Position numbers and translations under genes: made by a program. From assembly GCF_003143775.1 (NCBI RefSeq), contig NZ_QFRJ01000001.1:372001-436000 (forward strand): DNA of 64,000 nucleotides, written 5' to 3'. Positions 2,574 to 25,780 of this stretch are shown piece by piece (the first letter of the stretch is position 1; the number at the start of each line of letters is the position of its first letter). The notes below the pieces were generated by a model. It worked only from the letters and a program-made list of their open reading frames with translations, was not told where the DNA came from and ran no database searches. Origin of the DNA: Brumimicrobium oceani. GTDB lineage: Bacteria; Bacteroidota; Bacteroidia; Flavobacteriales_D; Crocinitomicaceae.

Positions 2574-3653
2574 CTACGTGAAATATCTAAAATCTTGAGC
2601 GTCTTCGATTTTTTTAATTGAAGCTAATATCAAATTAATGGTGTTTTCCACGTCTTCTTCATGCGTCATTTCTACAGTTGTGTGCATATAACGAATCGGT
2701 AAAGAAATTAGCGCAGAAGGCACACCTTCATTACTGTAAGCAAAAGCATCCGTATCTGTTCCAGTTGCGCGGGAAGCTGCTTGACGTTGGAATGGGATTT
2801 TTTCACTGTCGGCAGCGTTAATGATTAATTTCAATAAATTGTTTTGTACTGCAGGACCATAGGTTAAAACTGGACCCAATCCACCTTTAAAATCTCCATG
2901 CTCTTTTTTGTCAATAAGCGGCGTTCCTGTATCGTGACAAACATCAGTAATTATGGCAACATCTGGCTTGATTTTCTGAGCAATCATTTGAGCACCTCTT
3001 AATCCAATTTCTTCTTGAACGGAGTTCACGATATACAAACCAAAAGGAAGTTCTGTCTTTGATTCTTTCAGCATTCTCGCTACTTGAGCAATCATAAATC
3101 CACCAATTCTGTTGTCTAAAGCCCTTCCAACATAGCGATTGTTGTTTAAAATCATGAATTCATCCTCGAAAGTCACTACGCAGCCCACGTGAACACCCAA
3201 TTTTTCAACTTCTTCTTTTGTGCTGCAACCGCAATCTAAAGTGATGTTTTTTAAACTTGGTTTTGGATCTTTTTCATGACGGGTGTGAATTGCCGGCCAA
3301 CCAAAAACAGCTTTTACAGTTCCTTTATCTGTGTGAATATTTACACGTTTTGAAGGTGCAATCATATGATCTGAACCACCATTTCTGCGCACATAAATAA
3401 ATCCGTCATCTGTGATATAATGCACAAACCAAGCAATTTCATCTGCATGTGCTTCAATGACCACTTTGTATTTAGCTTCAGGATTAATAATCCCCACAAC
3501 ACTTCCGTAGTTGTCCACCATATAATCGTCAATGTAAGGTTTTATATATTCCAACCACATTTTCTGACCAGGGGATTCAAAGCCTGTTGGGGAGGCATTG
3601 TTTAAGTATTTTTCTAAAAACTTTTTACTTTCTTCCGTTATTGCTTTACTCAT
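2574..3653 (-). CDS. M42 family metallo-aminopeptidase
   Basis: Dinuclear-metal aminopeptidase of the M42 (FrvX/glutamyl aminopeptidase/TET-like) family, 359 residues, cytoplasmic with no signal peptide. Expected ligands and catalytic residues are all visible: H69 and D71 in EAHADE, bridging D180 in RALDNRIGG, the general-base pair E214-E215 in QEEIGLRGA, D237 in ITDVCHD, and H324 in RYMHTTVEM. The region between about residues 75 and 170 is the inserted domain involved in oligomerisation in this family. The ATG at 3653 gives the usual N-terminus, with a -7 octamer 15 bases upstream. The gene is monocistronic with its own terminator. Substrate preference (acidic residues versus broad) cannot be read from the sequence. 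Confidence 0.93.
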   Translation of the reverse strand: MSKAITEESKKFLEKYLNNASPTGFESPGQKMWLEYIKPYIDDYMVDNYGSVVGIINPEAKYKVVIEAHADEIAWFVHYITDDGFIYVRRNGGSDHMIAPSKRVNIHTDKGTVKAVFGWPAIHTRHEKDPKPSLKNITLDCGCSTKEEVEKLGVHVGCVVTFEDEFMILNNNRYVGRALDNRIGGFMIAQVARMLKESKTELPFGLYIVNSVQEEIGLRGAQMIAQKIKPDVAIITDVCHDTGTPLIDKKEHGDFKGGLGPVLTYGPAVQNNLLKLIINAADSEKIPFQRQAASRATGTDTDAFAYSNEGVPSALISLPIRYMHTTVEMTHEEDVENTINLILASIKKIEDAQDFRYFT

Positions 3654-3668
3654 TTTTTTAAATTTTTC

Positions 3669-3676
3669 TAAAGATA
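3669..3676 (-). promoter_or_regulatory. -7 promoter octamer for the M42 peptidase gene
   Basis: TATCTTTA on the minus strand is one base from TAnnTTTG and ends 15 bases upstream of the ATG. It is a weak match on its own, but its placement is consistent. Confidence 0.4.
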
Positions 3677-3791
3677 AAAATTCAATTATAATTTATCAAT
3701 TGAGAATTGAAACATGTTCCTTAATCTTGACCCAAAAACTCAGAAATTGATCCATTCGTAATTGTATTCTACATTCGTAATTAGTTTTTGT

Positions 3792-3799
3792 TAAATTTG
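3792..3799 (+). promoter_or_regulatory. -7 promoter octamer for the rhodanese-popT-aroE operon
   Basis: TAAATTTG followed by C is an exact TAnnTTTG match, 22 bases before the ATG at 3822. It supports the ATG at 3822 as the true start rather than an in-frame TTG at 3813. Confidence 0.55.
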
Positions 3800-3821
3800 C
3801 CGAGAATTTATTTTGAAACCG

Positions 3822-4136
3822 ATGAAAGAAATTACAGTTCAAGAATTAGCTGCGGCTTTACAGAAAGAAAAAACATTTGTATTGTTGGATGTTCGTGAAA
3901 ACTACGAATTCAAAATTGGTCATATTGCATGTAAACATATTCCAATGGGAGAAATTCCTACTCGTGCTAAAGAATTGGATTGTGAAAAGGAAACGATTGT
4001 AATTTGTAGATCGGGTAAGCGTGCAGCTGCTGTGGCGAACTTTTTAAATACAAATCATGGTTTTAAAAACATCGGAATTGTGATTGGTGGAGTAGAGGCT
4101 TACGCAAATGAAATTGATCAATCAATAGAAGTATAA
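3822..4136 (+). CDS. single-domain rhodanese-like sulfurtransferase
   Basis: A 104-residue rhodanese domain read from ATG 3822. It shows the family's LLDVRENYEFKIGHI segment and the active-site loop CRSGKRAAAVA, where the Cys would form the persulfide. The GHIACKHIPMGEI region matches the family's usual GHI..A.NIP pattern. It has no signal peptide and is likely cytoplasmic. The stop codon overlaps the start of the next gene (TAATG), so it is translationally coupled to the DUF368/PopT gene and probably co-transcribed with aroE. Proteins of this size carry sulfane sulfur, but the donor and acceptor are unknown. Confidence 0.9.
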   Translation: MKEITVQELAAALQKEKTFVLLDVRENYEFKIGHIACKHIPMGEIPTRAKELDCEKETIVICRSGKRAAAVANFLNTNHGFKNIGIVIGGVEAYANEIDQSIEV

Positions 4137-5077
4137 TGGAAAAACAACCTAGATCAATATCCCAATTATCTGGGATTACCTTGCGCGGAATGGCCATGGG
4201 TGCTGCAGATGTTATTCCTGGAGTTTCTGGAGGGACAATCGCTTTTATTACTGGGATTTACGAAGAACTTATAGGAAGCATTAGTAACATTAATATTGCT
4301 GCTTTTAAAAAGCTTAAAAATGAAGGAGTATCTGCTTTTTGGAAGCATGTGAACGGTAACTTTTTTGTCGCTTTACTTTTAGGAATAGCCATCAGTGTCT
4401 TGTCCTTGGCAAGGGTCGTGACGTATTTGTTGGTTGAATATCCTGTTCTATTATGGGCATTTTTCTTCGGTTTAATCGTTGCTAGTGCACAGTTGATATT
4501 AAAAACCGTTACTAAATGGGATATTAAAACAGTTCTCGGACTTACCGTAGGAACGGCAATTGCAGCTTATATTTCTACCGTTCATGTCACTGCAAGCGGA
4601 GGTGAATCTTGGTACATTGTTTTAAGTGGAGCTATTGCGATTTGTGCTATGATTTTACCTGGAATTAGCGGGTCTTTTATTCTTGTTCTCTTAGGTTCTT
4701 ATGCTCTTGTAATTGAAGGATTAAAAAATTTAGATTTCACAATAATCGGATTGTTTTGTTTGGGATGTCTTATCGGGATTTTATCTTTTAGTAGATTGCT
4801 AAAGTATTTATTCGAGAACTTTAAAAACCTTGTCTTAGCTATTCTTTCTGGTTTTTTAATTGGTTCTCTTTTAAAGATTTGGCCTTGGAAAAACGCAATT
4901 GGTGATGCGCCTATTGTTGTGCATTCTGATGGAAAAGAAGACTGGATGATGGCGAATGTACTGCCAGGTAACTTTGTAGGAGAACCTCAAGTATTATATG
5001 TTGTTCTTTTGGCGCTTTTCGGATATTTATTGGTTTACATAATGGATAAGTTCGGAAATAAATCTAAAAAAGCGTAG
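4136..5077 (+). CDS. popT: DUF368 / PopT-type undecaprenyl phosphate translocase
   Basis: Polytopic membrane protein of 313 residues in the DUF368 family, for which a role in returning undecaprenyl phosphate across the inner membrane (PopT) has been established in other bacteria. The diagnostic N-terminal motif GMAMGAADVIPGVSGGTIAF is at about residues 18-37, and a second, related motif CAMILPGISGSFILVLLGSY follows in the second half, giving the internal duplication expected of the family. There are about eight hydrophobic segments. It overlaps the rhodanese stop codon and precedes aroE by two bases. Lipid-carrier recycling would feed peptidoglycan and surface-polysaccharide synthesis. Family call is strong; transport activity is inferred from the family. 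Confidence 0.88.
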   Translation: MEKQPRSISQLSGITLRGMAMGAADVIPGVSGGTIAFITGIYEELIGSISNINIAAFKKLKNEGVSAFWKHVNGNFFVALLLGIAISVLSLARVVTYLLVEYPVLLWAFFFGLIVASAQLILKTVTKWDIKTVLGLTVGTAIAAYISTVHVTASGGESWYIVLSGAIAICAMILPGISGSFILVLLGSYALVIEGLKNLDFTIIGLFCLGCLIGILSFSRLLKYLFENFKNLVLAILSGFLIGSLLKIWPWKNAIGDAPIVVHSDGKEDWMMANVLPGNFVGEPQVLYVVLLALFGYLLVYIMDKFGNKSKKA

Positions 5078-5079
5078 CT

Positions 5080-5832
5080 ATGAGTCAGCAAGGGATTAGA
5101 AAATTTGGATTGTTGGGTGAAACGCTCGGACATTCTTTCTCTAAAAGTCATTTTGAGGAAAAGTTTAAGGCGGAAGAAATAAACGCAAGTTTCGAAAATA
5201 TAGAGCTTCCTGATGCTGAAGCAGTAGAGAAGTGGTTGAAAGCTGCACCAACTGAATTTACTGGTGTTAGTGTAACTATTCCTTACAAAGAAACTGTAAT
5301 TCCATTTTTAGACGAATTGTCGCCAGAAGCCAAAGCTATAGGAGCTGTAAATTGCATTCATTTTAAAGATGGAAAATCAATTGGCCACAACACAGATGCC
5401 TTTGGTTTTGGTCAGTCCATTAAACCTTTCCTAAGAAATATTCACGAACGTGCTTTATTACTCGGAACAGGAGGAGCTTCAAAAGCGGTTGCTTATACAT
5501 TAGAAAACTTAGGAATAACAGTTGCACATTTATCAAGAACTCCAAAGGAAGATCAAATGATTTTTGGATATGATCAAGCCAATGATTTAATGGTGAAATC
5601 TTTTCCGATGATTGTGAATTGTACACCTTTAGGAACTTCGCCAAATGTTGAGGAAATGCCTGCCTTTCCAATAGAATTGGTCGGAGAAGACCACTTTGTC
5701 GTAGATTTAATCTATAATCCATCAGAAACTTTATTCTTGAAATTGGCAAGAGAAAGTGGAGCGGATACTTTAAATGGTCTTTCTATGCTCAAACAACAGG
5801 CAGTAAAGGCTTGGGGGATTTGGAATAGTTAG
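5080..5832 (+). CDS. aroE: shikimate dehydrogenase (NADP+)
   Basis: Reduces 3-dehydroshikimate to shikimate in aromatic amino acid biosynthesis. Its 250 residues are slightly short for the family. Visible motifs: GHSFSKSHF near residue 17 (substrate Ser pair), VSVTIPYKE with catalytic K70, GAVNCI near 88, catalytic D106 in GHNTDAFGF, the dinucleotide-binding LLGTGGASKAVAY near 127, and GLSMLKQQAVKAWGIW at the end. The gene begins two bases after the popT stop and is the last gene of the rhodanese-popT-aroE operon. No anomaly was seen. Confidence 0.96.
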   Translation: MSQQGIRKFGLLGETLGHSFSKSHFEEKFKAEEINASFENIELPDAEAVEKWLKAAPTEFTGVSVTIPYKETVIPFLDELSPEAKAIGAVNCIHFKDGKSIGHNTDAFGFGQSIKPFLRNIHERALLLGTGGASKAVAYTLENLGITVAHLSRTPKEDQMIFGYDQANDLMVKSFPMIVNCTPLGTSPNVEEMPAFPIELVGEDHFVVDLIYNPSETLFLKLARESGADTLNGLSMLKQQAVKAWGIWNS

Positions 5833-6697: not shown

Positions 6698-6705
6698 TAA
6701 CTTTG
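6698..6705 (+). promoter_or_regulatory. -7 promoter octamer for the phosphoramidate operon
   Basis: TAACTTTG is an exact TAnnTTTG match 75 bases before the ATG at 6781. A transcript starting here would have a leader of ~70 nt that contains the inverted repeat at 6723-6772. Confidence 0.5.
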
Positions 6706-6722
6706 AAAATAGAGAGTTAAAA

Positions 6723-6772
6723 TGTCCAATTAAAGGGCTTTTTTATCAATGCTAAATATAGAAAATTGGACA
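6723..6772 (+). repeat. inverted repeat in the leader of the glutamine kinase gene
   Basis: TGTCCAATT (6723-6731) and AATTGGACA (6764-6772) are perfect 9-bp inverted copies separated by 32 bases. They lie between the predicted promoter and the start codon at 6781. In RNA they could fold and affect ribosome access; in DNA they could be an operator half-site pair. Neither role is shown. Confidence 0.5.
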
Positions 6773-6780
6773 AATCAGTT

Positions 6781-9171
6781 ATGCTAGACAAGAAAACCAA
6801 AGAATATTTGCTTACGGGAACAAAGGCAGAAACGCTTGAGTTTTTAGAGAATATTGAATATAATGTGCCTTCTGTTTTTTACTTTACAGTGAAGGAATGG
6901 AAAGAGAATAAGTTGGACTTGATAGAGAAAGTCTTGGCTAAGTATGAGGGTAACTTGCTAGCAATTCGAAGCAGCACAAAAGCTGAAGATACCGCAGATT
7001 CTTCTATGGCGGGTGCATTTGAAAGTATTCTAAATGTTAAATTAAATGCTGAAAGTATTGACAAAGCGGTGGAGAAGGTAATCGCCTCTTTTGATGAAGA
7101 TCAAACCAATCAAATTTTGGTGCAACCCATGGTGACCAATGTGGCGATGAGTGGTGTGATTATGACACAAGTACTCGATGACGGTTCGCCCTACTACGTT
7201 GTTAATTATGATGATAAAACTGGATTAACTGACACTGTTACAAGCGGAGCAACGGTAAATAAAACAGTTTATATTTATTATGGAGTAGACAGAAATGACT
7301 TTGACTCTCCTTTTTTACTGTTGGTTTTAGATCTAATTGAAGCTTTAAAACTTACCTTTCCGAATATTCCATTAGATATTGAATTTGCGATCAATAAATC
7401 TATGGAAATGAGTCTTTTGCAGGTGCGAAAAATTACTACAGTTAACACCTGGAAAATGCATATTACGGACCAGGTTTCTGACCGAATGCTTTACCTTAAG
7501 GAATACGTGGGGCAATTAATGCAAAATCGTCCACATTTATACGGACAAAAAACATTACTTGGCTTTATGCCAGATTGGAATCCTGCCGAAATGATAGGAG
7601 TGGTTCCTCACCCTTTGGCAATGTCACTTTATCGGGAATTGATTACGAAACGTGTCTGGAGTGTTGCCCGTGAAAAAATGGGCTACCGTAAAATGCCAAA
7701 TGTTGAACTGATGATTTCCTTATTTGGTCGAGCTTATATTGATGTGAGAAACAGTATCAATTCTTTCTTACCAGAGGGTTTGCCGAGTGCTATTTCGGAG
7801 AAAATGGTAAATGCTTATATCGAGCGGTTGAATAAATTTCCCTTTTTACATGATAAAATTGAATTTGAAGTAGTTCATACCGCCTATGATTTTGATTTCG
7901 AGAAGAATTTTCAGGAGAGATATCCTGATGTGCTTTCGAGAGAAGAATTCTTGAATTATAAAGGTTTACTCAGAAATCTGACCATTAAAGCTATTGACGA
8001 TAAGTATGAAAGTAGCTTGAACGTTGCTATTCGTGATATTGAAATCCTAAAATCAATTCAAAAGGTTAAATACCTACAGGACGGAAATTCATTTTCTATC
8101 GCAGACCAAATTAATACACAAATTGATGAATGTAAAAACTATGGAACATTACCATTTTCAATTATAGCGAGACATGGTTTTATTGCCGAAGGGATTTTAC
8201 GTTCAGCAGTCAGTAATAAAGGGATTTCAGAAGAAAGAGTAAAGGAATTTAAAAGCAGTTTTAATACAGTTGCAGGAGAATTGAGTGAAGATTTTCAGCG
8301 GGTATTAAAAAATGAACTCAGTAAGGATGAATACCTTTCGAAATATGGACATTTGCGTCCAGGGAGTTATGATATTCTCTCTCCAAACTATGCCAATAGG
8401 GAGGATTTGTTTGAGGGAATTCCAAGAAAAAATCAACACAGCATAAAACCTTTTAAATTAAGTAAAGAGGAAACTTCAAAGATTAATATTCTACTTGGTG
8501 AACATGGTTTTGATAACATCAAGGCAGAGGATCTTTTTAAATATGCCAAGAAAGCTATAATCGGAAGGGAATATGCTAAGTTTATCTTTACAAAACATCT
8601 TTCTGAAATATTAGAAAATATGGCGGAATGGGGTAAAATAGAAGGATTTACCCGAGATCAATTGGCAATGCTATCTATTGAAGATGTTTTGAGCGTGTTG
8701 ATTGCGCCATTGACAGATGATACTAAGTCTTATTACGAGAGAAAAATAGATAAAGCCGAGAATAATTTCTCTGTGGCTTCGTCATTCAAATTGAGTTACC
8801 TTATTCGCTCTGTACGAGATGTTCATATCGTGCCTATGCAGCGAAGTGAAGCTAATTTTATCGGTAATAGAAGAATAGAAGCAGAGGTGGTTGAATTAAC
8901 GCCTTACACCAAAGAAATTCCGCTTTTAGAGAACAAAATCATCTGTATTGAAGGTGCCGACCCAGGATATGATTGGATTTTTACAAGAAATATTGGTGGA
9001 TTGATTACAAAATATGGTGGAGCGAATTCTCACATGGCCATTAGGAGTGCAGAATTGAATATTCCTGCTGCGATTGGTTGTGGTGAACAACCTTACAATA
9101 GAATTGTGGCTGCTCAAAAATGCTTGCTCGATTGTCAACGTAAGAATTTAGAACCAATAGAACTTTCATAA
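6781..9171 (+). CDS. PEP synthase-like ATP-grasp kinase, probable L-glutamine kinase (Cj1418-like)
   Basis: About 796 residues in the architecture of pyruvate phosphate dikinase/PEP synthase. An N-terminal ATP-grasp portion includes LAIRSSTKAEDTADSSMAGAFE, and a C-terminal swivelling phosphohistidine domain has GGANSHMAIRSAELNIPAA with the phospho-His at about residue 751. No C-terminal PEP/pyruvate barrel is present; the middle ~350 residues are distinct. This is the arrangement of the Campylobacter glutamine kinase, which phosphorylates the amide nitrogen of L-glutamine. The assignment leans on context: the next two genes are of the types that act on phosphoglutamine. ATG 6781 was preferred over an in-frame TTG at 6766, which lies inside an inverted repeat. 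The next gene starts at the base after this one ends. Alternative: a rifampin phosphotransferase-like or other PEP-utilising kinase. Confidence 0.75.
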   Translation: MLDKKTKEYLLTGTKAETLEFLENIEYNVPSVFYFTVKEWKENKLDLIEKVLAKYEGNLLAIRSSTKAEDTADSSMAGAFESILNVKLNAESIDKAVEKVIASFDEDQTNQILVQPMVTNVAMSGVIMTQVLDDGSPYYVVNYDDKTGLTDTVTSGATVNKTVYIYYGVDRNDFDSPFLLLVLDLIEALKLTFPNIPLDIEFAINKSMEMSLLQVRKITTVNTWKMHITDQVSDRMLYLKEYVGQLMQNRPHLYGQKTLLGFMPDWNPAEMIGVVPHPLAMSLYRELITKRVWSVAREKMGYRKMPNVELMISLFGRAYIDVRNSINSFLPEGLPSAISEKMVNAYIERLNKFPFLHDKIEFEVVHTAYDFDFEKNFQERYPDVLSREEFLNYKGLLRNLTIKAIDDKYESSLNVAIRDIEILKSIQKVKYLQDGNSFSIADQINTQIDECKNYGTLPFSIIARHGFIAEGILRSAVSNKGISEERVKEFKSSFNTVAGELSEDFQRVLKNELSKDEYLSKYGHLRPGSYDILSPNYANREDLFEGIPRKNQHSIKPFKLSKEETSKINILLGEHGFDNIKAEDLFKYAKKAIIGREYAKFIFTKHLSEILENMAEWGKIEGFTRDQLAMLSIEDVLSVLIAPLTDDTKSYYERKIDKAENNFSVASSFKLSYLIRSVRDVHIVPMQRSEANFIGNRRIEAEVVELTPYTKEIPLLENKIICIEGADPGYDWIFTRNIGGLITKYGGANSHMAIRSAELNIPAAIGCGEQPYNRIVAAQKCLLDCQRKNLEPIELS

Positions 9172-9783
9172 ATGATTCGATTTGGAATTACAATGCGAAT
9201 AACTGAAGCAAATGGCTACGAAGAACAACGTGAGTCAATTGCTAGTGATTGGTGTGAATATATGATGAAAGCCTTTCCAAAAGCACAGTTCGTTTTTATT
9301 CCAAATCTTGAATATTCAGTTAAACAATATATTCAAGAGCTTGATGTTAATGTTTTGATAATTAGCGGGGGCGATGATTTAGGTTTGTATCCTAGGAGAG
9401 ACAGGTCAGAAATTTTTGCTTTGGAGTACGCGTTAGAAAACCACATTCCAGTTATTGGAGTTTGTAGAGGGCTTCAACTTATTCATTCCTATTTTGGAGG
9501 CCAAATAATTGAAGGCAATGCTGAATTTGTAAAGGATCACCGAGCATCAAAACATGAAATTGATTTTAAAGGTGAATCAAAAATTGTGAACTCCTATCAT
9601 ACCAATGAGATCGTGGAAGAAAGTATTTCCGCTCAATTTGAGATTATTGCAAGGTGTAAAGCAGATAATTCAGTTGAAGCCATTCAAAATGAATCTATTT
9701 TAGCGATGATGTGGCATCCTGAACGTGATTTGGTATTCGTAGATTGGAATAAAGAACTAATAGAAAATTTTATAAATACATGA
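9172..9783 (+). CDS. class I glutamine amidotransferase-like hydrolase, probable gamma-glutamyl-CDP-amidate hydrolase (Cj1417-like)
   Basis: A 203-residue stand-alone class I amidotransferase domain. The nucleophile is C98 in GVCRGLQLIHSYFGG, and the His-Glu pair is H182 and E184 in MMWHPERD, so the triad is complete. ISGGDDLGLYPRRD near residue 65 resembles the gamma-glutamyl-GABA hydrolase (PuuD) subgroup. In Campylobacter the equivalent enzyme releases glutamate from CDP-L-glutamine to leave cytidine diphosphoramidate. That role is inferred here from the neighbours. The gene directly follows the kinase without a gap and overlaps the cytidylyltransferase start by four bases (ATGA), indicating co-translation. 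Alternative: a PuuD-like hydrolase, although the usual putrescine-degradation genes are absent. Confidence 0.78.
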   Translation: MIRFGITMRITEANGYEEQRESIASDWCEYMMKAFPKAQFVFIPNLEYSVKQYIQELDVNVLIISGGDDLGLYPRRDRSEIFALEYALENHIPVIGVCRGLQLIHSYFGGQIIEGNAEFVKDHRASKHEIDFKGESKIVNSYHTNEIVEESISAQFEIIARCKADNSVEAIQNESILAMMWHPERDLVFVDWNKELIENFINT

Positions 9784-10529
9784 AAACAAGAGCGTTAATT
9801 TTAGCAGCAGGAAGAGGGTCGAGAATGGGAGCAGAAACTGCTTCTAAACCAAAGTGTTTTACTTTGTTGCAAGGTAAAAGGCTTTTAGATTGGCAGTTAG
9901 AGGCTATACGAAATGCGGGAATTGAGAATATTTCAATTGTTACCGGTTATAAATCAGAACTTTTTGATGAAGGTCTACCTACTTTTCATAATCCGAGGTG
10001 GAACGAAACAAATATGGTAGGTTCATTATTTTATGCAGATGATTTCGAGGGAAACACTCTCATTTCCTATTCAGATATCGTTTATAAAAGTGAGCATATT
10101 GTAAAGTTAAACCAAGCGGAAGCCGACATTACCATAACCGCTGATAGCAAGTGGGAAAGCTTATGGAATCTTAGGTTTGAAGACCCTTTGGATGACGCAG
10201 AAACTTTTAAGAGTGATGAAAATAATCAACTCACTGAAATCGGTCAGAAAACGGATGATATTTCTAATATTGAAGCTCAATATATGGGATTGATTAAATT
10301 AACAGCAAAGGGTTGGAGAAAAATCAAAGAGGTGTATGAAAGCTTAGATCAAAAACAAAAAGATAAAATGGACATGACAAGTTTGCTCAATTTGTTAATT
10401 GACAGAGGAATCAGCGTTAATGTTGTCTTTATTGATGGTGGTTGGTGCGAATCTGACGCTTACTCTGATGTTTTGGCTTATGAAAAGGAGATTAAAACCA
10501 ACAGTAATTGGGAGCATTATTGGAGATAA
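9780..10529 (+). CDS. nucleotidyltransferase, probable CTP:phosphoglutamine cytidylyltransferase (Cj1416-like)
   Basis: 249 residues with the LicC-like nucleotidyltransferase fold. The N-terminus ALILAAGRGSRMG (residues 5-17) is the nucleotide-binding loop, SKPKC follows with the conserved Lys, and ISYSDIVY carries the metal-binding D99. Generic annotation would be phosphocholine cytidylyltransferase family. Because it overlaps the amidotransferase gene and follows a glutamine kinase-like gene, I infer that it activates phosphoglutamine with CTP, as in capsular phosphoramidate synthesis of Campylobacter. A choline phosphate cytidylyltransferase is the main alternative, since a LicD-family gene is close by, but no choline kinase or choline transporter is present. 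Confidence 0.78.
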   Translation: MKTRALILAAGRGSRMGAETASKPKCFTLLQGKRLLDWQLEAIRNAGIENISIVTGYKSELFDEGLPTFHNPRWNETNMVGSLFYADDFEGNTLISYSDIVYKSEHIVKLNQAEADITITADSKWESLWNLRFEDPLDDAETFKSDENNQLTEIGQKTDDISNIEAQYMGLIKLTAKGWRKIKEVYESLDQKQKDKMDMTSLLNLLIDRGISVNVVFIDGGWCESDAYSDVLAYEKEIKTNSNWEHYWR

Positions 10530-10540
10530 ATACTTAAAAC

Positions 10541-11041
10541 ATGAATATTCTAGCTATTTCTGGATCTGCTAGCAAACAAAGCAGTAATTATCATCTTTTA
10601 AAAGCGATTCAAACACTGTTTAAAGACGACTTCATTATGGAAGTCTATGATTCCCTTCAAGACTTTCCATTGTTTACTCCAAATCTCTTAAAAGAAGGTG
10701 TTCCAGAAAATATCCAGGAGTTTAAAGCGAAAGTAGTGAATGCTGATTTGGTGCTGATTTCAACTCCTGAATACACCCATAACATTCCGGCTGTATTGAA
10801 AAACATGATCGAGTGGTGTACTCATTCTGGTGAGTTTTCAAATAAAAAAGTAATTCCCATTACATTTACTCCTCACGAACCTCGGGGAGAGTTTGCTATG
10901 CAGTCTTTGTTATTTTCACTAAATGCTTTGGATGCAAATACGATTGTTCAAGTTCCGCTTTATAAAACAGAGGTCACAATTAAGGAAGAGTTAATCCTTT
11001 TGTCAGATGACACACAAACACTTTTAAAAGAGGTTTTTTAA
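10541..11041 (+). CDS. NAD(P)H-dependent FMN reductase, flavodoxin-like
   Basis: 166-residue flavodoxin-fold oxidoreductase. The phosphate-binding loop GSASKQSSN is at residues 8-16 and the flavin loop STPEYTHNIPAVLKNMIEW at about 73-91 is typical of NADPH-dependent FMN reductases (PF03358). It begins 11 bases after the cytidylyltransferase and is likely the last gene of that operon. It has no known counterpart in the Campylobacter phosphoramidate pathway, so it may be an accessory or a chance passenger. The reaction partner is unknown. Confidence 0.85.
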   Translation: MNILAISGSASKQSSNYHLLKAIQTLFKDDFIMEVYDSLQDFPLFTPNLLKEGVPENIQEFKAKVVNADLVLISTPEYTHNIPAVLKNMIEWCTHSGEFSNKKVIPITFTPHEPRGEFAMQSLLFSLNALDANTIVQVPLYKTEVTIKEELILLSDDTQTLLKEVF

Positions 11042-11102
11042 TTAAATTAATTCTTTAGTTTAGGTGTGTTTATTGTTTGTTTTTTAAGTTTTTACACTTC
11101 TT

Positions 11103-12005
11103 TTATAGATGAGCTTTATTCAGCTTTTTTATTTTTGATGCCAATGAAAAACTTCCTTTTACAGCCTTCATAGCATACAATGTCCACATTAGTTTTTTAC
11201 TCATTGATTTACTAAATACCGATTTACTCAGTTTTTTAGCAAATGGTTCTCTTTGATTCACTGGTGGAGGGTTGATGTAGTCTTTACCATATAAATTTGT
11301 CAAATAAACCTCTAAATCATTTGGTCCGAAAAAGGGGTAAGTTTCAAAATCAATTTCTTTCACTGGAAATAAATGATCATAATGCATGTGCTTTACTTCT
11401 TTTGTAGCAATCATGTCGTTATAAGTCGTAACGAAAACATGGTCTTTCTCGACTTTATTCAGGCTATCGACATATTCTATGTAGTCCTTCATGAATCTTT
11501 CACGCTTGAAAAGGAAACTACCTTCATAAAGATACTTCTGAATCATATCTCTATCTTTTACGAGCAACTCCTTTTTTTTATCAAACATAAATGCCAACAA
11601 ATTTAGATAGTCTCTATCTTTTTGTAATGCCTCAGGTGTGTTGGGGAGTGATTTGACCTTTATTAAATCAATTTTCACAGGATAAAGGTTATCTCTTACA
11701 ATTCGTGTATCTGCTAAATATTCAGAATAATGTGGGAAAGGTCGGTTTTCATTGTATAAAATGAAATGAGGATGATTAGGAACAAGCTCTTCTCTTAGCA
11801 CTTTAAGCATTCTGTGGTAATCATCAATTAAAAAGCACAAATCTAAATCGTCGTCCCACTCAATAAAACCTTTATTTCTAACTGCTCCTAAAACCGTCCC
11901 GGTGCTAATCCAATAGGGTATATTGTGTTTACGGCATAATTGGTCAACATCTTTCGCCATTTCAAGCAAAGCCATTTGTGTTTCTCTAAGGTATTTGAAC
12001 TCCAT
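11103..12005 (-). CDS. LicD-family phosphotransferase
   Basis: 300 residues. The LicD signature lies at the N-terminus: PYWISTGTVLGAVRNKGFIEW followed by the acidic cluster DDDLDL (D51-D53, D55), the metal-binding motif of this nucleotidyltransferase-fold family. LicD enzymes transfer phosphocholine or similar phospho-groups from a CDP-linked donor to glycans. It is the last gene of a flippase-SGNH-LicD operon (9-bp gap upstream) and converges on the predicted cytidine diphosphoramidate genes. It is therefore a reasonable candidate for transferring that group to a surface glycan, but this is inference. The C-terminal ~100 residues are Lys-rich and less conserved. Confidence 0.85.
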   Translation of the reverse strand: MEFKYLRETQMALLEMAKDVDQLCRKHNIPYWISTGTVLGAVRNKGFIEWDDDLDLCFLIDDYHRMLKVLREELVPNHPHFILYNENRPFPHYSEYLADTRIVRDNLYPVKIDLIKVKSLPNTPEALQKDRDYLNLLAFMFDKKKELLVKDRDMIQKYLYEGSFLFKRERFMKDYIEYVDSLNKVEKDHVFVTTYNDMIATKEVKHMHYDHLFPVKEIDFETYPFFGPNDLEVYLTNLYGKDYINPPPVNQREPFAKKLSKSVFSKSMSKKLMWTLYAMKAVKGSFSLASKIKKLNKAHL

Positions 12006-12014
12006 GAATATCTT

Positions 12015-12737
12015 TTATTTGAGTAGTTTTTGATTGTGTATTATGTCCAGCAACCTTTCCGAAACTTCTTTGTTTCCTGATTCCGAAAAATGAACGCCGT
12101 CAGGATAGTGTTCTTCGGACTTTAAGTCATCCAAATTGACGTAAATTGCCTCTTTTTCTTTGCAAATTGAGGCGATGATGGAATTGTATTTATTGTAATT
12201 CTTTTGGGTTCCGGGTATCATTTTTTCAACTCTGTCGTTGGCTTGATTAATTCCTAAGCAAATGATCTTTCCGTTGGTATTGTGTTGAATCGAGTAAAGC
12301 AATTTGGTGTACTCCTGTTTAAAAACTTTGGTTGATGTCCAAGCGCGCTTTCCTCTTAATTTTACCAGAAATCTCATGTTGGGTTTAATCGCATAAAGGT
12401 GGAATGCTTTCAGTGCTTTAACGAGCAAACTCCGCTTATTTGAGAACAGGAAGTCAGCAAACCATCTGGGGATTTCTCTTGTCGCCGCGTCAGAACTTCC
12501 AATATTTATGATGTATAAATCACCATAATTATTGATTATTTCAGGATAAACCTTGTGTAAATCATACATTGTAGCCCTCGTGAATGCAAGGTTTTTCACT
12601 TGAATGATTCCGTCTTGCTTTTCTTTATTGAGCTTTTCCTCAATAATTTGGCCGTAATTTTTACTCGTCAAACTGTTGTGCGGTCTATTGCGCAAAGCAA
12701 CGGAATTCCCCACAATTACAATCTTCTGAATCTTCAT
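12015..12737 (-). CDS. SGNH/GDSL hydrolase-fold protein
   Basis: 240 residues. Block I is IVIVGNSVALR with Ser at residue 12, a block III-like segment is IINIGSSDA, and the C-terminal block DGVHFSESG supplies Asp and His. These together indicate an SGNH esterase or acyl/acetyl-transferase. There is no signal peptide, so it would act in the cytoplasm or on a membrane-associated precursor. It sits between the flippase and LicD genes with gaps of 8 and 9 bases, so a role in decorating or editing the exported glycan is likely. Substrate unknown. Confidence 0.75.
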   Translation of the reverse strand: MKIQKIVIVGNSVALRNRPHNSLTSKNYGQIIEEKLNKEKQDGIIQVKNLAFTRATMYDLHKVYPEIINNYGDLYIINIGSSDAATREIPRWFADFLFSNKRSLLVKALKAFHLYAIKPNMRFLVKLRGKRAWTSTKVFKQEYTKLLYSIQHNTNGKIICLGINQANDRVEKMIPGTQKNYNKYNSIIASICKEKEAIYVNLDDLKSEEHYPDGVHFSESGNKEVSERLLDIIHNQKLLK

Positions 12738-12745
12738 TTTACGCC

Positions 12746-14230
12746 TTATTTTAGAATTTTAGCTTTGTATTTATCGATAAATCTATTAATTTCTATTGAT
12801 AAATGTAGCTTGTAAACAACAAAAATAAACAATATTATAAATCCTCCTGAAATCAAGACAGAAAGTAGGATTGATTTAAAAATTGATGGTAGAAATAGAG
12901 GCATAAAAATCGCAACCAATAAGAAAAGTGTGATGATGAGTAGAGGCCAAGTGAATGGATGCATTTTGTACTTAATAGCAACAAAAATTGTTTTTAGTAA
13001 GTTGAACAAAAGCATGGATATCGCGGTAGATAGAGCAGCTCCAACAATGTCGAAGGAATTAATGAAGTAGTAGTTCATAATCACGTTGGATATTGCCAAT
13101 ATGAAAATAAATAAGGTGTTTACTCGGAAATATTTGGAGTAAGAAATGATGGAAAAGTTTACACTCGTAACCATATCTATGATTTTTGTTAATGCCAGCA
13201 ACAGAAAAACTGTTTTGTACATTACCAAGTCTTCGCCGTTGGTCATTACCACAAAAAAGGTTTCAATATTCAACCAAATCAATGAGAAGAGCAAAATTCC
13301 AACAACGTATAAATTAGCGGATGAAGTTTTGTAGAGCTTCTGAATTTCATCCATTCTATTTTCGTCGAAGGCCTTTGATATCATGGGACCAGTAATTTGA
13401 AAAACGGCTTTTGTTGGTATTTCAATAACTACAGAAAGAAAAAGGAAAATACTGTAATAACCTACTTTCGTTGCCGAGAGAAGCAAACCAATCATCACCA
13501 CATCAATTTTATAAACCAAGATATTCCCAACATGATTCATGGCTCCGTAAAGCATGTATTGAATCATTTCAAAGTGTTTCTTCCGCTTAACTCGTCTTAA
13601 AACGCCTGTTTTAAAATCTAAACCGTTTAAAGATTTTAAATAAAACATTAGTCCCAAGGCAATGATAATGTGGTAAACAACAAGGATCCAGCCTGCAATA
13701 TTATAGTTGATTAGGGAAAAATAACTCAATAAGATTATTCCAGGAACTATAATTTTTAAACTGAAGTTGGAAATAATATCGGGATAAACAATTCTGCCAA
13801 AATTAAAGCTGTGTGCCCGTAACACTGCGATGAAAACCATCAAAACGCCTAATGGAAAAATGATAAATAAATTGTCGTTGATTTTCCCTACATCAAATCC
13901 TCCCAGTGCGAGCATTGCGGAAAAAGGCGCTTTAAACAGGTATAAAATAGCAGAAATAAATACGATGTTTATTGTGCTGTAAATGAAGAGTAAGGATATA
14001 AAACCTTTGGTTTTTGTGCTTTCAAAGTAAGGGAAGTACTTATTGACCAAAGCATGACTCCCTAGTGAAAAGAAAGCGCTCAGCAATATAGCAGTAGACA
14101 AACTAAACTGAATTTCTCCATAGAGTTCCCAGTCTAGCGGATAGATAAACATGGTACTCAGTCCACCGATGATGATGCCCAAGTAGTTTACTATAGAGTT
14201 TTTTAAACTTTGTCTTTGTACGATTCCCAC
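12746..14230 (-). CDS. polysaccharide flippase (Wzx/MOP superfamily)
   Basis: 494 residues with about twelve to fourteen hydrophobic segments, the length and spacing of an oligosaccharide-lipid flippase of the MOP superfamily. The N-terminus IVQRQSLKNSIVNYLGIIIG is typical of Bacteroidetes Wzx-like proteins. It starts at GTG 14230. It is the first gene of the flippase-SGNH-LicD operon and would move undecaprenyl-linked glycan to the periplasm. No Wzy polymerase or glycosyltransferase lies in this window, so this is a satellite of a larger polysaccharide pathway encoded elsewhere, or a decoration system. Confidence 0.87.
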   Translation of the reverse strand: MGIVQRQSLKNSIVNYLGIIIGGLSTMFIYPLDWELYGEIQFSLSTAILLSAFFSLGSHALVNKYFPYFESTKTKGFISLLFIYSTINIVFISAILYLFKAPFSAMLALGGFDVGKINDNLFIIFPLGVLMVFIAVLRAHSFNFGRIVYPDIISNFSLKIIVPGIILLSYFSLINYNIAGWILVVYHIIIALGLMFYLKSLNGLDFKTGVLRRVKRKKHFEMIQYMLYGAMNHVGNILVYKIDVVMIGLLLSATKVGYYSIFLFLSVVIEIPTKAVFQITGPMISKAFDENRMDEIQKLYKTSSANLYVVGILLFSLIWLNIETFFVVMTNGEDLVMYKTVFLLLALTKIIDMVTSVNFSIISYSKYFRVNTLFIFILAISNVIMNYYFINSFDIVGAALSTAISMLLFNLLKTIFVAIKYKMHPFTWPLLIITLFLLVAIFMPLFLPSIFKSILLSVLISGGFIILFIFVVYKLHLSIEINRFIDKYKAKILK

Positions 14231-14259
14231 TATTTTGTCAATATTTTAATCAACCGTCA

Positions 14260-14267
14260 CAAAAATA
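14260..14267 (-). promoter_or_regulatory. -7 promoter octamer for the flippase-SGNH-LicD operon
   Basis: TATTTTTG on the minus strand matches TAnnTTTG exactly and lies 29 bases upstream of the GTG start at 14230. This supports the GTG as the real start. Confidence 0.5.
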
Positions 14268-24509: not shown

Positions 24510-25064
24510 ATGAAGGAAAACAATATGCACTACAAATATTTAAGCTACAGTTCACCTAAAGAAAAAATAGACTATTCCTACTCCGAATTTAAAGGAGAGC
24601 TTTTTATGGATGCTTGGAAAAATTCTCGAGCGCTTTCTAAGGTTGAAAAAGAACAACAAAATATTACTTTTTCATACTCAGAGGAAGAAAATACTAAAGC
24701 TTTGCTTACGAATTGGTTGGTAGAATTTCAAAATTCAGAATTTAAGGACTTTCAAAAATTAAAGTTGCTTTTAAAGAGATTTGAGGTAACACGGAAGATA
24801 TACGAAACGTATGATGAGAACTTTAGACCTTTGAACAAAAACACAAAATTTACTGAGAATACATTATACTTACTTTTTTCTTTCGTTTTGGTGAATGCTT
24901 ATAAAGAAACAAAAAAGTTATATTACTTGAATAGTTTATTGAAAGTGAACGATATTCTTATCAGTAATGAAAAGGATTTGACAGAAAACGACATCAGCCT
25001 ATTAAATTTGTGCGTAGCAGAGGAATTAAGGTTTATTGATAACCTAAGAAATACATTGAAATGA
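24510..25064 (+). CDS. hypothetical protein coupled to a formyltransferase-like gene
   Basis: 184 residues, not recognised. It is soluble, Lys/Glu/Asn-rich, predicted mostly helical, and lacks a signal peptide or membrane segment. The C-terminal half (TLYLLFSFVLVNAYKETKKL onward) is Leu-rich. Its stop codon overlaps the ATG of the next gene by four bases (ATGA), so the two proteins are probably made together and may act together. ATG 24510 is the longest credible start; a Met at residue 6 is an alternative. Its real status is supported by the coupling rather than by similarity. Confidence 0.6.
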   Translation: MKENNMHYKYLSYSSPKEKIDYSYSEFKGELFMDAWKNSRALSKVEKEQQNITFSYSEEENTKALLTNWLVEFQNSEFKDFQKLKLLLKRFEVTRKIYETYDENFRPLNKNTKFTENTLYLLFSFVLVNAYKETKKLYYLNSLLKVNDILISNEKDLTENDISLLNLCVAEELRFIDNLRNTLK

Positions 25065-25780
25065 AAATATTACTACTGGCAGGAAATACTTTAAGAGCAA
25101 AAGCTTATGCACAATCTTTGGCTCATGCAAATTTTGAAGGACTTGAGGTGAAAGGATTACTCTTTGGAGATTTTAATAAATCTTCTGCAATTCCTCATTT
25201 AAATGTTGAAACTGAAAATTACTTTACAAATCACAACATTTTTATTCCAAACTATGAAAACTCACTCGAACAGACTTTTGAGGATAATCATTGGAGCTTT
25301 TCTAAAGTAGCAAACAGAGACGTAAACTCAGAGGAGGTATTGGCGGAAATTGACCGATTAGATTGTGACTTGGTTGTTTTTGCAGGTTATGGTGGACAAT
25401 TATTAAAGAGTCCACACTTTACTGCTGCTAGACAATATCTTCACATGCATCCAGGAAAATTACCTTTGGAGCGAGGAAGTACAACCATCTATTACAGTGT
25501 TTTGAATCAACGAAAATGTACTGTAACAGCATTCTTTATGACCCCAGAAATTGATAATGGCAAGAACATCCTATACAAGGAATACGAAGTTTTTGGCAAA
25601 AATGTGGATGTTGATAATTGGTTTGATAATGTTGTACGAGCGGACTGTTTTGTAAGCGCACTCGGCATGCTTTTATCTGGAAAAGCAACACCAGAAACTC
25701 CCGAAGGAATTTCTGATGAGTATTATGTAATTCATCCTGTTTTAAAGCATTGCGCCCTGCTTTCGTTAAGGGAGAGTTAG
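25061..25780 (+). CDS. formyltransferase-family protein with altered catalytic motif
   Basis: 239 residues resembling the N-terminal formyltransferase domain (methionyl-tRNA formyltransferase, GART and sugar N-formyltransferases). DLVVFAGYGGQLLKSP at about 103-118 precedes the motif HMHPGKLPLERGSTTIYYS at 128-146. The conserved Asp is D165 in MTPEIDNGKNI. In active family members the first motif reads NxH; here the Asn position is His128, so H130 and D165 are kept but the Asn is not. There is no C-terminal tRNA-binding domain. It is coupled to an unknown 184-residue protein. It could be a sugar or amine formyltransferase, or a hydrolase using the same fold; it is not the main fmt gene. Confidence 0.75.
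   Translation: MKILLLAGNTLRAKAYAQSLAHANFEGLEVKGLLFGDFNKSSAIPHLNVETENYFTNHNIFIPNYENSLEQTFEDNHWSFSKVANRDVNSEEVLAEIDRLDCDLVVFAGYGGQLLKSPHFTAARQYLHMHPGKLPLERGSTTIYYSVLNQRKCTVTAFFMTPEIDNGKNILYKEYEVFGKNVDVDNWFDNVVRADCFVSALGMLLSGKATPETPEGISDEYYVIHPVLKHCALLSLRES

Follow-up and report, generated by a model that had tools for sequence, protein, structure and literature searches.

We analysed a 64,000-nucleotide stretch of the Brumimicrobium oceani genome (contig NZ_QFRJ01000001.1 of assembly GCF_003143775.1, forward-strand positions 372,001 to 436,000; hereafter the window). It encodes a cassette of three genes predicted to make a nucleotide-activated phosphoramidate, namely a glutamine-kinase-type enzyme, an amidotransferase-fold hydrolase (GATase) and a cytidylyltransferase, and, further downstream, two genes here called SP and FT that are linked to such cassettes in other genomes. 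A sequence-only reading had described the cassette together with a neighbouring LicD locus. All of the genes that it listed are real, and the set was incomplete, since SP and FT at 24510-25780 lie beyond the region it covered. The cassette and the SP-FT pair comprise:

6766-9171, forward strand: kinase of the glutamine-kinase type, with ATP-grasp and phospho-His mobile domains and His756 (NF004508; PF01326 and PF00391)
9172-9783, forward strand: GATase, a class I amidotransferase resembling gamma-glutamyl-CDP-amidate hydrolase (Peptidase_C26/GATase; NF045546)
9780-10529, forward strand: cytidylyltransferase-like NTP transferase (NTP_transf_3, PF12804), overlapping the GATase gene
24510-25064, forward strand: SP, a helical 184-aa protein of an unnamed family (conserved columns, structure model)
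25061-25780, forward strand: FT, formyltransferase-like, with His128 in place of the catalytic Asn and with His130 and Asp165 retained (PF00551)

The kinase is 801 aa long from a TTG start, or 796 aa from an ATG at 6781. Its match to NF004508 scores 904.7 bits (cut-off 501) and spans protein residues 15-798 and profile positions 9-788 of 789, compared with at most 52 bits for phosphoenolpyruvate (PEP) synthase models and 26 bits for the rifamycin phosphotransferase model RIF_Ptrans_rph. The only Pfam domains matched are PPDK_N (PF01326) and PEP-utilizers (PF00391, phospho-His), with no Pfam match to a PEP barrel, and His756 is kept in 84 of 86 rows in an alignment of relatives, the remaining two having gaps. 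ATP-grasp and phospho-His domains without a PEP barrel, together with a catalytic His, are what we take to characterize L-glutamine kinase (EC 2.7.3.13), and all of these are present. The bit scores set the protein apart from PEP synthases and rifamycin phosphotransferases, the two groupings that the sequence-only reading had named as fatal to its proposal, and support a kinase of the glutamine-kinase type. The Cys98/His182/Glu184 triad of the GATase is complete in 78/78 rows (the window and 77 relatives). The cytidylyltransferase has relatives of solved structure in 6pd1, annotated as a nucleotidyl transferase/aminotransferase, and LicC (1jyk), and its Gly12/Arg16/Lys26/Asp100 signature is intact in all 77 rows. 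All three genes are intact where they had first been placed, and both the phospho-His domain without a PEP barrel and the complete triad were borne out.

The cassette is widespread but patchy, and not peculiar to one Bacteroidetes genome. A kinase over the cut-off occurs in only one of 59 genomes made up of the window's own and its relatives (the window's genome), in 7 of 395 Bacteroidota genomes, the window's included, and in 12 of 349 Pseudomonadota genomes, among them the one chosen as centre. A scan of named genomes returned at least 576 stretches with kinase relatives; the comparison used the 80 nearest. Together with L027-L029, L031, L032 and the window, these (L033-L112) make up 86 loci; L030 was omitted, being the same genome as L034. 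Genes were counted as nearby within 12 kb of the kinase (20 kb for the window), with thresholds of >60 bits for GATase and >200 bits for cytidylyltransferase, and several locus contigs end early, so that absences there are weak. On these terms GATase accompanies the kinase in 79/86 loci and cytidylyltransferase in 77/86, and the arrangement is therefore not due to chance. Loci with all three genes were found in named records of Bacteroidota, Pseudomonadota, Thermodesulfobacteriota, Bacillota, Cyanobacteriota, Verrucomicrobiota and archaea. Kinase relatives also occur in 14 plasmid records and one phage record (E <= 1e-30). The unannotated 9.5-kb record MT837632.1 from human faeces, labelled as phage, has one at 592-2991 (33% identity over 99% of the query).

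Several kinases have unusual architectures. Those of L028 (9416-12526, reverse strand), L029 (8899-12027, reverse) and L031 (8865-12011, reverse), and likewise that of L108, are 1036-1054 aa long with an N terminus matching the cytidylyltransferase, in addition to a separate cytidylyltransferase gene. The 970-aa kinase of an Altiarchaeales locus (L107, 3153-6065, forward) has an N-terminal part that by eye resembles glycerol-3-phosphate cytidylyltransferase. In a Candidatus Adiutrix locus (L064, kinase at 2795-5164) a single 1072-aa frame holds both kinase and GATase.

The first 4 bases of FT are also the last 4 of SP, and in the window the pair has a CsaA-like gene on one side and prfC on the other (both named by eye). 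The congener G004 keeps these flanks but has a 372-aa gene in place of SP and FT. In Roseivirga thermotolerans (L030, identical to L034), SP (178 aa) and FT directly follow the cytidylyltransferase and are 43% and 49% identical, respectively, to the window's proteins. The window's SP matched no Pfam entry over the cut-off and none in NCBIfam or PHROGs, and a sequence-profile search found no significant relative in the PDB (best E 0.31). Invariant columns of the SP alignment (36 rows) include Glu92, Lys145, Asp148 and Glu172. The structure models have predicted local distance difference test (pLDDT) scores of 93.5 for FT and 87.6 for SP.

FT scores 32.4 bits against PF00551, over the gathering cut-off of 26.1, and by sequence is a member of this fold, an assignment that makes no claim of formyltransferase activity. 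The Asn-His-Asp triad is catalytic in GART, Fmt and ArnA, and FT departs from it: the Asn, present in that column of Fmt (4iqf), is His in all 41 FT rows (40 distinct genomes, with both L030 and L034 counted). The site is otherwise kept, with the second His, the Asp and a Pro in 41/41 rows and, following the Pro, Arg-Gly or Lys-Gly in 40/41. Hits below 200 bits (9 of 50) were excluded; among them are conventional formyltransferases, one of which lies at the far left of L033.

The occurrence of SP and FT is closely tied to the kinase. Among the 395 Bacteroidota genomes, FT occurs in five (E <= 1e-20) and SP in four (E <= 1e-5), all inside the seven with a kinase; without the window's genome, all four FT genomes fall within the 6 of 394 that have a kinase (p ~1.5e-8, kinship ignored). 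The two FT genomes among the 349 Pseudomonadota are both among the 12 with a kinase, one of them being the centre, which was picked for having FT. FT lies near the kinase in 40/86 loci and SP, counted from 25 bits upward, in 39 of those 40, the weak cases being L029 (28 bits) and L028 (37 bits). Five loci have SP and FT joined in one frame, and three have SP joined likewise to adenosine 5'-phosphosulfate (APS) kinase.

FT also excludes certain other genes. It shares no locus with the methyltransferase family MT2 (40 FT loci, 19 MT2 loci), nor with any of the seven loci of a family of 415-aa proteins. L091, L095 and L097 have SP and FT between APS kinase and MT, a second methyltransferase family; in L032 and L089 this position is taken by the 415-aa gene. 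The loci appear to differ by an exchangeable finishing module (MT2, SP-FT or the 415-aa protein), and 20/86 carry none of the three. The FT label has to change 8 times over the kinase tree, 7 of the changes being forced by supported branches (the 20 rows without a label left out), so the link to FT has been gained or lost repeatedly. The tree is of a quick type with no bootstrap, and the placement of L067, on an outlying branch and probably with a broken reading frame, is to be ignored. The 415-aa family (403-431 aa) occurs in L032 (11756-12982, forward), L078, L080, L089, L090, L098 and L112; it has an N-terminal membrane segment by eye, and the member scanned had no Pfam match. Another family, of 591-669 aa, occurs in L032 (7003-8841, forward), L031, L033, L089, L091 and L097, again with no Pfam match for the member scanned.

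We propose that SP and FT cap the phosphoramidate donor, most likely by N-formylation. That FT acts on the donor is probable; that it does so by N-formylation is a more tentative suggestion, made because of the FT fold, the tie to the donor genes and the exclusion with MT2, and doubted mainly because the catalytic residue is changed.

Converging on the cassette is the LicD locus, with an FMN reductase gene between them:

10541-11041, forward strand: flavin mononucleotide (FMN) reductase (FMN_red), an ancestral neighbour kept outside the pathway count
11103-12005, reverse strand: LicD, candidate terminal transferase (PF04991, 110.7 bits, cut-off 22.6)
12015-12737, reverse strand: SGNH/GDSL-like enzyme (PF00657, Lipase_GDSL, 25.3 bits)
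12746-14230, reverse strand: flippase (by eye; no Pfam match)

The LicD gene is the only LicD match in the genome. Of 10 genomes of the genus, five, that of the window among them, have flippase, SGNH enzyme, LicD and FMN reductase together, so the stretch from 6.7 to 14.3 kb is not a single acquired island; compared with the congeners, the window has only the kinase-GATase-cytidylyltransferase set and SP-FT as extras. In G004, G001 and G002 the gene between LicD and FMN reductase encodes a 395-aa protein with weak matches to LicD and to methyltransferases. In G005 (L154, 5764-8347, forward) racemase-, methyltransferase-, HAD- and nucleotidyltransferase-like genes (by eye) lie between SGNH and LicD and are possibly another LicD donor module. 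The window's cassette sits beyond FMN reductase as seen from LicD, and we rejected the idea that it occupies the exact place of the congeners' modules: the insertion places of G004/G001/G002, G005 and the window differ. The genes aroE and PBP1C are about 138 kb apart in G004 and 47 kb apart in G003, too far to frame an empty site.

LicD itself is the divergent gene of its locus. Between the window and G004, its nearest congener, identity is 59% for LicD, 92% for the flippase and 90% for PBP1C. The LicD proteins of G004, G001 and G002 are 78-81% identical to one another, and that of G005 is 52-56% identical to all others, so that LicD type tracks the neighbouring gene set in 5/5 genus members with the locus. 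This pattern fits a LicD specific for a donor that differs between members of the genus.

FMN reductase starts 12 bases past the cytidylyltransferase and may be co-transcribed with it in the window. It also adjoins the locus in the four congeners that have LicD without a kinase, and in G003, which has neither. We regard it as probably not part of the pathway but a mere neighbour because it adjoins the same locus where the cassette is missing; the sequence-only reading had noted no known role for it in the pathway.

The sequence-only reading had also noted that the second kinase and the methyltransferases of Campylobacter are missing, and wider searches agree. The CDP-amidate kinase of Campylobacter is, we assume, of the APS kinase fold and family; the genome (99.97% complete) has no APS kinase match (PF01583) at E <= 0.001, with a model that does find matches in 11 of 14 genomes used as controls. 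No MT or MT2 methyltransferase lies within 20 kb of the window's cassette, the extent of that search. The absence of APS kinase and MT in the window is a local feature and no rule of the FT type, because the nearest kinase relative, L033, has both and 32/40 FT loci carry APS kinase. The eight FT loci that lack APS kinase include L076 and L107 on short contigs; on the 9.8-kb contig of L107, the kinase is followed by SP, FT and a protein of the LicD family, and APS kinase is absent. Transferases of the CDP-X type (PF04464, LicD, CDP-alcohol type) were found in 28/40 FT loci and in 5/46 others. As a general replacement for APS kinase they were rejected (22/65 loci with APS kinase, 11/21 without, p 0.20); L070 has PF04464 beside APS kinase, and an initial LicD match in that locus was profile drift, absent with later profiles. 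Flagellin-like genes lie near the cassette in 8/86 loci (e.g. L028, L029, L066, L070) and nonulosonate synthesis genes (by eye) in L031, L033, L035 and L098, which hints that the acceptors in some lineages are glycans of flagella or of a sialic-acid-like kind.

Together, the gene content, conservation, co-occurrence, fusions and divergence pattern lead us to lean somewhat towards a split gene set that makes and uses a nucleotide-activated phosphoramidate, modified by SP-FT and transferred by LicD. The kinase, using ATP and His756, would place a phosphate on the amide nitrogen of glutamine, the cytidylyltransferase would couple the phosphoglutamine to CMP, and the amidotransferase-fold hydrolase would release glutamate, leaving CDP-amidate. 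The last two reactions follow the Campylobacter order. We regard these three steps, by analogy, with good confidence; the first follows the published glutamine-phosphorylating activity of the Campylobacter kinase (PMC6429109). SP and FT would then act on CDP-amidate, most likely placing a formyl group on the P-NH2 in lieu of Campylobacter's O-methylation, and LicD would pass the group from the CDP donor, with no 3'-phosphorylation, to a surface glycan that the flippase exports. In its fullest form, a widespread branch in which SP and the Asn-to-His FT N-formylate CDP-amidate to give N-formyl phosphoramidate esters of glycans, with LicD and an unphosphorylated CDP donor in this genome, the scheme is unlikely to hold in every part. 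To our knowledge, an SP-FT branch of phosphoramidate metabolism is undescribed. If the scheme is right, N-formyl phosphoramidate would add about +106.98 Da to a sugar, against +93.00 for O-methyl phosphoramidate (MeOPN; both calculated).

A number of observations weigh against this scheme. At its first steps, NF004508 carries only the name 'hypothetical protein', and the membership of the Campylobacter kinase in it is presumed. The best NCBIfam model for the GATase is NF045546 (gamma-glutamyl-CDP-amidate hydrolase), at 102 bits against 48 for the next model, and this lies below the cut-off of 250; GATases of three other loci score 88-95 bits, so that none of the four tested reaches it. We do not count the window's GATase as a member of that family, and it may still have the same activity. 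In the window, SP-FT lies 15 kb downstream of the kinase with unrelated genes between. Without the canonical Asn, formyl transfer by FT may be lost or changed, and MT accompanies FT in 9/40 loci, so FT does not replace all methylation. The FT searches in Bacteroidota and Pseudomonadota scored at most 7-8 candidates per genome, and the 80 scan loci are the closest relatives of the window, which biases the share of FT upwards. In L033, 68% identical in the kinase, SP-FT is accompanied by APS kinase and MT, and as APS kinase is found in 32/40 FT loci, a route without 3'-phosphate is in the minority. Loci lacking APS kinase are not significantly richer in CDP-X transferases (11/21 vs 22/65, p 0.20), and 12/40 FT loci have no recognised transferase of this type. 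As for LicD, it lies near the kinase in 3/86 loci, one of them with APS kinase, a count made with narrow profiles (one seed each) that may be too low. The congener row with the 395-aa-type protein has no cytidylyltransferase. Flippase, SGNH enzyme and LicD also stand in four congeners without a kinase match, and the LicD genes are older in the genus than the cassette.

These last points bear most on the final step. That the LicD genes are unrelated, the phosphoramidate reaching another glycan through another transferase, is a serious competitor, if a somewhat doubtful one. It would account for the LicD, SGNH and flippase genes of congeners without the kinase and for the FMN reductase that separates cassette from LicD, but not readily for the LicD identity pattern (59%, against 92% for the flippase); nor does the genome have a match to PF04464, the one other transferase family searched. 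LicD as transferase of the phosphoramidate, as the sequence-only reading had it, is for us nearly evenly balanced, falling slightly on the doubtful side: LicD has diverged more than the rest of its locus and varies in type with its neighbours, but it also occurs in four congeners without a kinase match. The position of the cassette, beyond FMN reductase and not where the congeners' other module stands, counts against it.

The same reading had supposed that LicD transfers an unmethylated phosphoramidate. The product need not be bare, given SP-FT, a pair linked to this cassette in many lineages, 15 kb downstream. On the strict version, LicD would transfer unmodified P-NH2 from CDP-amidate and FT would act elsewhere, for example formylating an amino sugar of the acceptor. 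LicD lies near the cassette and diverges with it, and FT belongs to the superfamily of the sugar N-formyltransferases. The C. jejuni capsule phosphoramidate may be methylated or unmethylated according to a review (PMC9561416), and a phosphoramide is reported in Xanthomonas lipooligosaccharide (PMC8042644); from these reports non-methylated forms are chemically precedented. Nevertheless, the confinement of FT (5/5) and SP (4/4) to kinase genomes among the 395 Bacteroidota, and the frames that join SP to APS kinase, a donor-side enzyme, in three loci, fit a role at the donor better than one at the acceptor, and we consider the bare route improbable. Of similarly low probability is a repurposed SP-FT that is no formyltransferase: it might exchange the P-N bond, protect it, or attach a different one-carbon or acyl unit. 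The His in 41/41 rows and the invariant Glu, Lys, Asp and Glu of SP, which resemble an active site, would suit it, but not the retention of the second His, Asp and Pro in 41/41 rows and of Arg-Gly/Lys-Gly in 40/41. That the cassette instead activates glutamine phosphate or another phosphate, LicD transferring a phospho-glutamyl or phosphocholine-like group and no phosphoramidate being made, draws on the relation of the cytidylyltransferase to LicC (1jyk) and 6pd1 and on the usual donors of LicD enzymes, CDP-choline and the like, but is very unlikely beside a hydrolase-type GATase next to 79/86 kinases, with its triad in 78/78 rows and gamma-glutamyl-CDP-amidate hydrolase as best model.

The preferred scheme, of a modified phosphoramidate donor, can be set against what has been reported. 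A 2022 review treats glutamine kinase as specific to C. jejuni and MeOPN as not described earlier in nature (PMC9561416). Orthologues of cj1416-1418 were found in 13/30 Campylobacter strains and MeOPN in 9 of the 13 tested, the ortholog screen covering Campylobacter proteomes only (PMC3907429). The five sfm flagellin genes of Shewanella described in PMC3765264 include no such kinase. We recognised no prior description of SP-FT or of the wide distribution of the cassette in the portions consulted of the open-licence literature, which is not a claim of absence from print. If the kinase relatives work like the Campylobacter enzymes, P-N bonded glycans would be far commoner than believed. Roseivirga thermotolerans and Christiangramia gaetbulicola are among the named strains in which their occurrence is testable.

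Four known systems or locus types resemble parts of the gene set. The loci of the MT2 type (e.g. L041, L043) share kinase, GATase and cytidylyltransferase, along with APS kinase, and differ in having a methyltransferase and FT in 0/19. With the PF00551 superfamily (Fmt, ArnA, sugar N-formyltransferases, GART), FT shares a score over the Pfam cut-off and the second His and Asp, but it has His for Asn (41/41), the partner SP and the tie to glutamine-kinase cassettes. The Lic phosphocholine pathway likewise has a LicD family protein and a cytidylyltransferase related to that of the window (LicC), whereas the window's row has a glutamine-type kinase and a hydrolase, with no choline kinase among the genes annotated there. 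The apparent likeness to the MeOPN pathway of Campylobacter jejuni (Cj1415-Cj1422) lies in the set of glutamine-kinase-type, hydrolase-like and cytidylyltransferase genes linked to surface glycan genes. In contrast to that pathway, the window's genome has no match to the CDP-amidate kinase and no MT or MT2 within 20 kb, and it has SP-FT, and a LicD candidate where Campylobacter has the Cj1421 and Cj1422 transferases.

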